From Acidobacteriota bacterium (GTDB taxonomy: Bacteria; Acidobacteriota; Blastocatellia; Pyrinomonadales; Pyrinomonadaceae), in NCBI GenBank assembly GCA_003697135.1, contig RFGC01000018.1, positions 186,001 through 250,000 on the forward strand: a DNA stretch of 64,000 nt. Reading direction: 5' to 3'. Below the pieces are notes generated by a model. It was not told the origin of the DNA. It did not search any database and worked only from the letters and a program-made list of their open reading frames with translations. Positions 32,037 to 34,923 of this stretch are shown in pieces. How positions within the stretch are numbered: position 1 is the first letter of the stretch; each line of letters opens with the position of its first letter. Position numbers and translations under genes: made by a program.

Positions 32037-32612
32037 TTATGCACTAATTTCCTGTGGATTTTTCAGAGTAGCTATAAATGGAAGGTTTCTAAAGCGATTT
32101 GCGGCATCGAGTCCGTATCCCACAACAAATTTGTTCGGTATCTGAAAACCGCAGTAGTCAATCTTCAACTCTTTTTTTATTCTCGGCTCTGGTTTGTCTA
32201 AAAGTGCGGCGACTTTTAGTGAGTTTGCACCGCGTGTTTGCAGGATTTCAAGCAGTCTAAAAAGCGTTAATCCCGTATCAACAATATCTTCAACCACGAT
32301 TACATCTTTGCCGCGAATTGGGTGAGTTAAGTCTTTCAAAATTTCAATATCGCCTGAGCTGACTTGAGCATCTTTGTAGCTTGAAACTACCATGAAGTCT
32401 ATTGAGAGTTTTAGGTCAATTTCCCGCATCAAATCCGATAGAAAGACACAACTTCCTTTCAAAATACCGATCAACACGAGGTCTTTATCGGCATAATCCT
32501 TAGTGATTTGTTTTCCGAGTTCTGCAACACGATGGCGAATTTGCTCGGCAGTGAACATGATTTCTAAATTCGGATTTGTGAATTCACTATATTTTTTCGA
32601 TTCGGCCGTCAT
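32037..32612 (-). CDS. hpt: Hypoxanthine phosphoribosyltransferase
   Basis: A 191-residue purine-salvage enzyme that makes IMP and GMP from hypoxanthine or guanine with PRPP. The PRPP loop VIVVEDIVDTGLT is near residues 105-117, the flexible-loop segment around GSCVFLSDLMR and SSYKDAQVSSG near 55-85 is present, and the C-terminal GYGLDAANRFRNLPFIA completes the purine site. ATG at 32612 is preferred over the frame's earlier ATG at 32642 because AAGGAAGG precedes it by a few bases. Divergent with the RpiB-like gene. Confidence 0.93.
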   Translation of the reverse strand: MTAESKKYSEFTNPNLEIMFTAEQIRHRVAELGKQITKDYADKDLVLIGILKGSCVFLSDLMREIDLKLSIDFMVVSSYKDAQVSSGDIEILKDLTHPIRGKDVIVVEDIVDTGLTLFRLLEILQTRGANSLKVAALLDKPEPRIKKELKIDYCGFQIPNKFVVGYGLDAANRFRNLPFIATLKNPQEISA

Positions 32613-32620
32613 AACCTTCC

Positions 32621-32650
32621 TTGAGTTTGAAGAAAATTTCAAGATACTAT
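32621..32650 (+). promoter_or_regulatory. Candidate promoter between hpt and the RpiB-like gene
   Basis: TTGAGT at 32621-32626, 18-bp spacer, TACTAT at 32645-32650, with an inverted repeat TTGAA-N6-TTCAA at 32627-32642 inside the spacer. Only 74 bp separate the two divergent start codons. Confidence 0.35.
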
Positions 32651-32686: not shown

Positions 32687-33457
32687 ATGAATCGTGAAAA
32701 AATCCGTAGCATCGTAAAGGAAGTTCTAGATGAAACTTTAGCGATTTCAGAATCCTCGGAAACGGAAAAAGTTTTTCCTGAAAGGTTGATTGTGAATTCT
32801 CTCAAAGAGAAACTTGCGCGTGATTACGACGCAGACGAGTCAGAAAAGGCTTTGATTACGGAAGATGAATTGCGCAAGTTAGAGCAGGGAAGTAGGCTTC
32901 TTGTTTCGGAAAATGCGCGTTTTACTCCGCTCGCATTGGACATTATTCGTGAAAAACAAATTCAGATAATCAAAAAAAGCAGGTCCGGGTTTAGCCAAGT
33001 CAAGTCAATTGGTTTAGGTTGTGATCACGGCGGTTTTGAATATAAGGAAAAACTCAAAAGTTACTTGGTCGAAAGAGGTTTTAGAGTAAATGATTTCGGG
33101 ACTGACTCGAAGGAGTCGGTTGACTATCCTGACTTTGCGCATCAAGTTGCTAAAGCAGTTGCCGAAGGGAAAGTTGATGTTGGAATCATAATTGATGGGG
33201 CTGGCATTGGAAGCGCAATCACTGCAAATAAAGTTCCGGGCGTTAGAGCGGCAGCTTGCTACAATGTCGCATTAGCAAAAAACGCCCGCGAACATAACGG
33301 CGCAAACATTTTAACGCTTGGAAGCGGGCAAAATTCATTTGATGAAATCGTTCAAATAGTCGAAGCGTTTTTATCTTCTGACATAACAGAAGAAAGACAC
33401 AAAAGGCGCGTGCGGAAAATAGAAAGCATCGAGAAGCAATACCTTAGTAGATTCTAA
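32687..33457 (+). CDS. RpiB/LacAB-family sugar-phosphate isomerase with an extra N-terminal domain
   Basis: A 256-residue protein in which an RpiB/LacAB domain (residues about 105-250) follows a roughly 100-residue N-terminal piece. D113-H114 in GCDHGGFEYK, GSGQNSF near 212 and the C-terminal RRVRKIE fit RpiB. The catalytic cysteine of ribose-5-phosphate isomerase B is replaced: GIIIDGAGIGS has D170 where CGTGIG is usual. The N-terminal segment ITEDELRKLEQ ... ARFTPLALDII resembles the LTP-x-AR motif at the start of EutT- and EutQ-like microcompartment proteins. No shell genes are near. ATG at 32687 lacks a ribosome site; the frame opens earlier at 32621. Confidence 0.72.
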   Translation: MNREKIRSIVKEVLDETLAISESSETEKVFPERLIVNSLKEKLARDYDADESEKALITEDELRKLEQGSRLLVSENARFTPLALDIIREKQIQIIKKSRSGFSQVKSIGLGCDHGGFEYKEKLKSYLVERGFRVNDFGTDSKESVDYPDFAHQVAKAVAEGKVDVGIIIDGAGIGSAITANKVPGVRAAACYNVALAKNAREHNGANILTLGSGQNSFDEIVQIVEAFLSSDITEERHKRRVRKIESIEKQYLSRF

Positions 33458-33537: not shown

Positions 33538-34923
33538 ATGATAAAGCGGTTGTGCATTTTGGTTTTGGTTTTGATTCTCAAAGCCAGTTTGTTTGCGCAA
33601 AATGAGCGCTACGAACTTGGTAAAAGACTACGGAAGCTAGAGGCAGAATTAGAAAATGCGTCTCCGCAACTTCGTAAAGAGGCTTTTGCTGAAATAAAAA
33701 AAGCGGTTGATGGCTTTTTTACATTTCGGTTTTCCGATGTTGCAAAAAGTTTGGATAAAGCTTACTTGATTCTCAAGCAAAGGAACGATGAACAATCGCT
33801 TTGGGCAGAGAGTCTGTCCGTGTTACCTGAATACCGCTTTATTGATGGAAAAAATACAGAGTTGGAGCTTGCAATTTCAGCATTTTATCGAACACTTGAC
33901 ACAATACCGCAAAATGCTACTTTGAATTTGAGTTTAACAGACTCAAAAGGCAAGGCTTTCAAAAAATTTCAACCCGTTTTGATAAAGTCTCTGCCGATTT
34001 CGGAAAAGATCAGCCTTGGAAGAATCAAGGCTGGTGATTATTTCTTGAGGTCTGAAATTTTGATAGGCGGGAAAATCCTATCAGTGAGCGAACAGGTTAT
34101 TTCGATTTCAGATAATCTCGAACAAAGGCTTGAAGGACTAGAAAAGAAACTTGAGTCAAATAAAAGCGATTGGAAGAAGGAAACCGCCCTTGAGTATCTT
34201 AAAATTTTGCAAAGACTGAAAAAAGGTGAGACTCTAGAAACCGATTACAAAGCTGACGAAATTCTAAAAAAGGTTGAGATTTTGGCTTTTAAGCCCGAAG
34301 GATTTGAGGTTCGGCCGGGACAAACTTTGATAGCAATTCCGCTCAGTGACGGAGTTCAGGTAAGTCGCGTTTTTTTACCGAAGGACTACAACAAAGCAAA
34401 AGCCTTGCCATTAGTGATAGCACTTCACGGAGCCGGTGGGAGTGAGAATCTCTTTTTTGAAAGCTACGGAAACGGTAAGATCGTTAAGCTTTGCCAAGAC
34501 AGAGGTTGGATTCTAATCGCTCCAAGAAACTTCGGTTTCAAAGCGGTGAAAATGCAAGAGTTTATCGAGTCTTTAAGCGAAATCTACAAAATTGACAAAA
34601 GCAAGATATTTCTGATTGGACACTCTTTGGGTTCGATACAAGCGCTAACAATAGCTTCAGAAAGAGCAGAGCTTTTTCGTGCCATTGCGCTTGTCAGTGC
34701 TGGTGGCAACTTCAAGAGTGATGAGAAACTAAAGAACTTGCCGATATTTATTGCCACTGGAACTGCTGACTTTTCGTTTAGAAACTCAAAATTACTGCAA
34801 GAAAGAATGCTGCAAGCAGGATTTACAAACGTAAAATTTGTAGCTTATGAGGATGTAGAACATCTAACGGCTGTCCAGTTTTCTCTGAATGAGATTTTCG
34901 ATTTTTTCGACAAAACGCTTTAA
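33538..34923 (+). CDS. Secreted alpha/beta-hydrolase (esterase) with N-terminal helical region
   Basis: A 461-residue exported protein (signal peptide about 1-20). Residues 30-240 are mainly helical and unrecognised, with a coiled-coil stretch (NLEQRLEGLEKKLESNKSDWKKE). Residues 270-461 form an alpha/beta hydrolase: LHGAGGSENLF oxyanion region, nucleophile serine in GHSLGS, aspartate in GTADFS and histidine in VEHL. Fits the esterase/PHB depolymerase (COG3509/4099) group. Strong ribosome site GGAAGGAGGAG before the ATG. Two TTCTAGAAG palindromes lie upstream at 33461-33493. Confidence 0.75.
   Translation: MIKRLCILVLVLILKASLFAQNERYELGKRLRKLEAELENASPQLRKEAFAEIKKAVDGFFTFRFSDVAKSLDKAYLILKQRNDEQSLWAESLSVLPEYRFIDGKNTELELAISAFYRTLDTIPQNATLNLSLTDSKGKAFKKFQPVLIKSLPISEKISLGRIKAGDYFLRSEILIGGKILSVSEQVISISDNLEQRLEGLEKKLESNKSDWKKETALEYLKILQRLKKGETLETDYKADEILKKVEILAFKPEGFEVRPGQTLIAIPLSDGVQVSRVFLPKDYNKAKALPLVIALHGAGGSENLFFESYGNGKIVKLCQDRGWILIAPRNFGFKAVKMQEFIESLSEIYKIDKSKIFLIGHSLGSIQALTIASERAELFRAIALVSAGGNFKSDEKLKNLPIFIATGTADFSFRNSKLLQERMLQAGFTNVKFVAYEDVEHLTAVQFSLNEIFDFFDKTL

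Follow-up and report, generated by a model that had tools for sequence, protein, structure and literature searches.

Microcompartment loci of the SPU (sugar phosphate utilization) type code for RpiB and deoxyribose-phosphate aldolase (DeoC), and two published accounts read the two enzymes as acting in parallel on ribose- and deoxyribose-phosphate (PMC8217296, PMC4207490). A second type, ACI, is described in PMC8217296 as found only in Acidobacteria, with its aldehyde dehydrogenase on a satellite locus, and is listed there among metabolosomes with no obvious aldehyde-generating enzyme. The chemistry of RpiB itself is described for the trypanosomatid enzyme, in which the base at C2 is Cys and a proton is shuttled between O2 and O1 by Thr71; C69S and C69A substitutions abolish activity, with Asp not among the substitutions tested, and the base of the Mycobacterium tuberculosis enzyme is Glu75 (PMC4783025).

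The window (the whole 64,000-nucleotide stretch analyzed here) codes on its forward strand for a 256-residue protein, P0001 (positions 32687 to 33457, from the ORF translation), an RpiB with Asp in place of the catalytic Cys (D-type) and a putative N-terminal targeting region. Residues 108 to 245 match PF02502 (6.6e-51; 172.3 bits against a cut-off of 24.7), which places the protein in the RpiB family, and the NCBIfam equivalog rpiB (TIGR01120) is also passed, at 145.9 bits against 138.65. The isomerase domain (residues 107 to 252; 33005 to 33442, forward strand) is delimited by the PF02502 match, alignment, and an AlphaFold model, in which it lies within an rmsd of 1.4 Å of the solved RpiB 3he8. 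From its N terminus the model has a helix (residues 3 to 22), a low-confidence linker (24 to 43), a confidently predicted small domain (about 49 to 97), and then the RpiB domain. The genome has a second RpiB, on contig C18, which is ordinary, 47% identical to P0001, and reads CGSGIG at the catalytic site. The divergent neighbor of P0001 is a hypoxanthine phosphoribosyltransferase gene (32037 to 32642, reverse strand), and a phosphoribosyltransferase is also near the D-type rpiB in a relative (G003); downstream, 33538 to 34923 codes for a protein that resembles alpha/beta hydrolases or esterases and, weakly, PHA depolymerases.

The RpiB motif CGTGIG reads DGAGIG in P0001, as the sequence-only reading had noted, and alignment to solved RpiBs bears this out, placing D170 (33194 to 33196; this and the codons that follow are on the forward strand) on the catalytic Cys. 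That reading had left room for an alignment with another active-site Cys, but no other Cys aligns there; as a substitute catalytic residue, C191 was rejected, as it is outside the loop and 18 of 144 D-types have Ala in its place. All 29 orthologues examined in the P0001 family and all 144 D-type sequences have this Asp, and D-type RpiBs span 14 named phyla. Alignment of D-types with Cys-types shows that the position of Thr71 is occupied by Ala172 (33200 to 33202), with Thr replaced by Ala in 137/144 D-types, and that Asn199 is present in 119/144. Ser176 (33212 to 33214) is invariant in the D-types (144/144), whereas Cys-types nearly all have Met, Ile, or Val, and by the numbering of PMC4783025 the M. 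tuberculosis Glu75 would correspond to this residue. His203, the ring-opening His of RpiB, is aligned and retained (His203-Asn204, 33293 to 33298), and D-types keep it together with Tyr147 and the Arg residues. A tree of 185 RpiB domains, built with the motif columns left out, requires two changes, and a topology that unites all D-types is not rejected; a single origin of the D-type clade is thus possible, and counts of D-types are not independent events since the type perhaps arose once. Both signature and tree place P0001 in the same sequence clade as the shell-linked (SPU-type) RpiBs. A Cys-to-Asp change in RpiB was not found in the literature searched, whose scope leaves out most subscription journals.

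The sequence-only reading had proposed a survey of genomic neighbors, and this finds Asp-type RpiBs near shell genes and DeoC across phyla. RpiBs were gathered from Acidobacteriota genomes and from a single scan that covered 84,980 species genomes, with closeness to shell genes scored inside the fetched stretch only; so scored, all 54 RpiBs with a shell gene in the fetched locus carry Asp, and no shell gene lies near any of the 41 Cys-types (50/50 and 0/30, respectively, for loci L013 to L181). The choice of loci relied partly on a DGAG-containing pattern and retained the 80 that most resembled D-types, which could leave Cys-types from shell loci under-represented. Four extra RpiBs between BMC-P genes, read as a check, are all Asp-type, and the second RpiB read in three of these genomes has Cys and no link to shell genes, which lessens this concern without removing it. 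Among 297 Acidobacteriota genomes, BMC-P is present in 86 of the 87 with a D-type RpiB (the Asp being inferred from score and not read in 14 of them) versus 32 of the 210 without (Fisher p = 2.6e-46, with relatedness ignored). The single genome with a D-type RpiB and no BMC-P detected (G311, locus L086) may reflect an assembly gap or a genuine loss. A strict one-to-one pairing of ACI with D-type RpiB was rejected, and the enzyme is not obligatory for ACI, because it is not detected in these 32 BMC-P genomes, 11 of which have a strong ACI-type aldolase match.

The window is part of contig C40, and the earlier statement that the gene stands alone with no shell genes nearby holds for that contig; it fails for the genome, in which the suggested search for shell proteins recovers three BMC-H genes (contigs C12 and C14) and three BMC-P genes (C12). 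Contig C12 also codes for an ACI-type class II aldolase bearing a C-terminal extension, and C14 has an aldehyde dehydrogenase gene flanked by two BMC-H genes, its product being closest to acetaldehyde dehydrogenase (acetylating) at 568 bits, below the cut-off of 620. The arrangement is close to that published for ACI: class II aldolase with a putative C-terminal peptide, BMC-P triplet, BMC-H, and satellite aldehyde dehydrogenase. An SPU-type layout, with rpiB and deoC within the shell locus, was not found, as rpiB is on C40 and the main shell locus on C12. We note that the best match of the aldolase (L010:9888-10682) is 3-oxo-tetronate 4-phosphate decarboxylase, below cut-off, followed by fuculose-phosphate aldolase, and that no hydroxyacid dehydrogenase was recognized among the ORFs of the C12 locus (L010), to which that search was limited.

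The region preceding the isomerase domain has three parts. The predicted N-terminal helix REKIRSIVKEVLDETLAISE (residues 3 to 22; 32693 to 32752, forward strand), of which orthologues keep TRDRVRALVREVL, is a candidate encapsulation peptide and is missing in the canonical paralogue. Its hydrophobic moment is not significant against shuffles, so we do not use amphipathicity as evidence. The linker (residues 24 to 43; 32756 to 32815, forward strand) varies among orthologues and has pLDDT values below 50. In the sister genome G001 the orthologue (L014:1492-2163 / L198) has the small domain but not the helix, which may thus be dispensable or recently lost.

The small domain (ITExxL...FTPLA, residues 53 to 100; 32843 to 32986, forward strand) is EutT/EutQ/PduM-like and is also present at the C terminus of the ACI aldehyde dehydrogenase. 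Across the whole window genome its profile finds only two proteins, P0001 (1.3e-19) and the C terminus of the C14 aldehyde dehydrogenase (1.9e-4). An NCBIfam search with members of the domain matches TIGR02536, PduM, and EutT, all microcompartment families (TIGR02536 and PduM for P0001 residues 53 to 100), with matches to EutT/PduM-type families above chance and below the whole-family curated cut-offs; the sole match outside such families is a weak one to a DeoR-type regulator. Since the domain also matches EutT and EutQ of E. coli, the likeness of the N-terminal segment to EutT/EutQ-like proteins, first noted from the sequence alone as an LTP-type motif, is real homology. The further suggestion, that the protein may interact with a compartment encoded elsewhere, has good support from the shell genes on C12 and C14, from the sharing of the domain with the C14 dehydrogenase only, and from the presence of BMC-P in nearly all D-type genomes. 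Neither a fold search nor a profile search of PDB sequences gave a significant solved structure for the domain. Four of 39 members in its alignment weakly match the E3-binding domain of 2-oxoacid dehydrogenase complexes (best 0.0032), a possible hint of a role in assembly. Stand-alone small LTP-type-domain proteins are also encoded in shell-gene-bearing Chloroflexota loci (L152:15255-15584, L129:15120-15557, and L134:6281-6634).

Members of the D-type clade are in most cases either fused to DeoC or encoded beside it. Several join RpiB to a DeoC portion that scores 281 bits against the equivalog TIGR00126, and from L042 onward 96 of 110 D-types have DeoC in their locus, versus none of 30 Cys-types. 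In Pyrinomonadaceae, D-type rpiB is followed by a deoC whose product has the conserved N-terminal segment NYEKLVEQITDLVL, which is probably helical and of the same kind as the P0001 helix. In the window genome the single deoC carries a segment of this type and is on C14, where about 127 kb separates it from the BMC-H and aldehyde dehydrogenase genes; the pair is thus split here, and in the sister genome G001 the two genes are about 1.4 kb apart. In 13 relatives the phosphopentomutase gene (deoB) is near D-type rpiB, and in the window genome it lies about 5 kb from the aldehyde dehydrogenase gene, a relocation that rules out deoB always lying beside D-type rpiB. The clusters of relatives also include 5'-nucleotidase genes and a phosphoribosyltransferase, and beside D-type rpiB at L205:9118-11010 and L206:5356-7247 the 5'-nucleotidase is split into two adjacent genes, for the catalytic and C-terminal domains.

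From the Asp-type clade with its shell-gene and DeoC links, the shared small domain, and the DeoC, DeoB, aldehyde dehydrogenase, and shell genes of the genome, all established from sequence, we infer encapsulation, the order of the pathway, and the reaction itself: P0001 is probably cargo of an ACI compartment that breaks deoxyribose-5-phosphate via acetaldehyde to acetyl-CoA. Although encoded apart from the shell, the protein would be put in the lumen by its N-terminal helix and EutT/PduM-like domain, and the acetylating-type aldehyde dehydrogenase would make acetyl-CoA while the shell retained acetaldehyde. The RpiB domain is most likely still a pentose-phosphate isomerase, in which Asp170 would be the base replacing Cys and Ser176 would be the hydroxyl source, as Thr is in ordinary RpiB. 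Against this reading stand the loss of activity in the trypanosomatid C69S and C69A enzymes (PMC4783025; Asp not being among them), the BMC-P genomes lacking a D-type RpiB, the G001 orthologue lacking the helix, and the helix not being significantly amphipathic. Moreover, the usual substrate of DeoC has no 2-OH, so there is no obvious step before DeoC for an aldose-ketose isomerase; since deoxyribose-5-phosphate cannot undergo that step, the enzyme would either treat ribose-5-phosphate in parallel or do something else, such as ring opening.

The first of these, in which the same cargo isomerizes ribose-5-phosphate from RNA nucleosides parallel to the action of DeoC on deoxyribose-5-phosphate, as proposed for SPU, is possible, with the chances somewhat against it. 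DeoB takes both pentose-1-phosphates, which counts in its favor, as do the 5'-nucleotidase genes near D-type rpiB in relatives. SPU loci are read in this way in PMC8217296 and PMC4207490, but a canonical RpiB is already present in the genome and the active-site loop is consistently altered. Doubtful, in our view, is that the cargo has lost ribose-5-phosphate isomerization and feeds DeoC by ring opening of 2-deoxyribose-5-phosphate, or by acting on some other 2-deoxy sugar phosphate. The D-types fused or adjacent to DeoC fit this, as does the replacement of both the C2-base Cys and the O2/O1-shuttle Thr with His203 and the phosphate-binding residues kept (roles as in PMC4783025); however, Asp is a competent isomerization base, and spontaneous opening of deoxyribose-5-phosphate may be quick enough. 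Less likely is a role as a triose isomerase, since PMC4207490 reports an SPU locus that has a TIM of its own. It is very unlikely that P0001 has lost catalysis altogether and acts as a scaffold within the compartment: the lost Cys is essential in trypanosomatid RpiB, but all other catalytic residues are kept, and the Asp and Ser are strictly conserved across phyla. Least probable is a standard cytosolic RpiB whose Asp arose by chance and whose N-terminal extension has no relevance: although TIGR01120 is passed, the Asp is invariant in D-types and tied to shell genes and DeoC, and the N-terminal domain is conserved and BMC-specific.

If cargo of ACI is the correct reading, the distant DeoC and Asp-type RpiB, with their likely targeting parts, give a testable proposal for soil Acidobacteria whose ACI has no obvious aldehyde producer, with deoxyribose from DNA as the fuel. 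The Asp/Ala/Ser signature is a simple marker for compartment-linked RpiBs labeled as plain ribose-5-phosphate isomerases in databases, and replacement of the catalytic Cys by Asp poses a clean question in enzymology. A stronger version, to which we give rather low weight, is that across a clade of 14 phyla Cys gave way to Asp with coordinated loop changes, yielding a new deoxyribose-5-phosphate reaction that feeds DeoC in the compartment and would also be the missing signature pathway of ACI.

Compared with canonical RpiB (E. coli, C. thermocellum, and T. cruzi), P0001 shares the fold and most active-site residues, but has Asp for the catalytic Cys, Ala for Thr, an added Ser176, and an N-terminal extension. 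It shares with EutT, EutQ, PduM, and TIGR02536 the small ITExxL...TPxAR-type domain of microcompartment proteins, although in the window genome this domain is fused to RpiB and to aldehyde dehydrogenase and scores below the whole-protein cut-offs of those families. The closest counterpart is the SPU microcompartment RpiB (pfam02502; Axen 2014, Sutter 2021), likewise an RpiB-family isomerase tied to DeoC, aldehyde dehydrogenase, and shell genes, and an RpiB-aldolase fusion has already been noted in Marinimicrobia. P0001 differs in being unlinked from shell genes and in its extra EutT/PduM-like domain, and its Asp/Ala/Ser signature was not found in the accessible text of either paper; RpiB in SPU compartments is thus already published, and the Asp signature and the ACI link appear to be new within the literature searched. 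With ACI as described in Sutter 2021, the genome shares a class II aldolase with a C-terminal extension, a BMC-P triplet, BMC-H, and a satellite aldehyde dehydrogenase, and to that description we add D-type RpiB and DeoC as proposed candidates for the absent aldehyde-producing signature enzyme.
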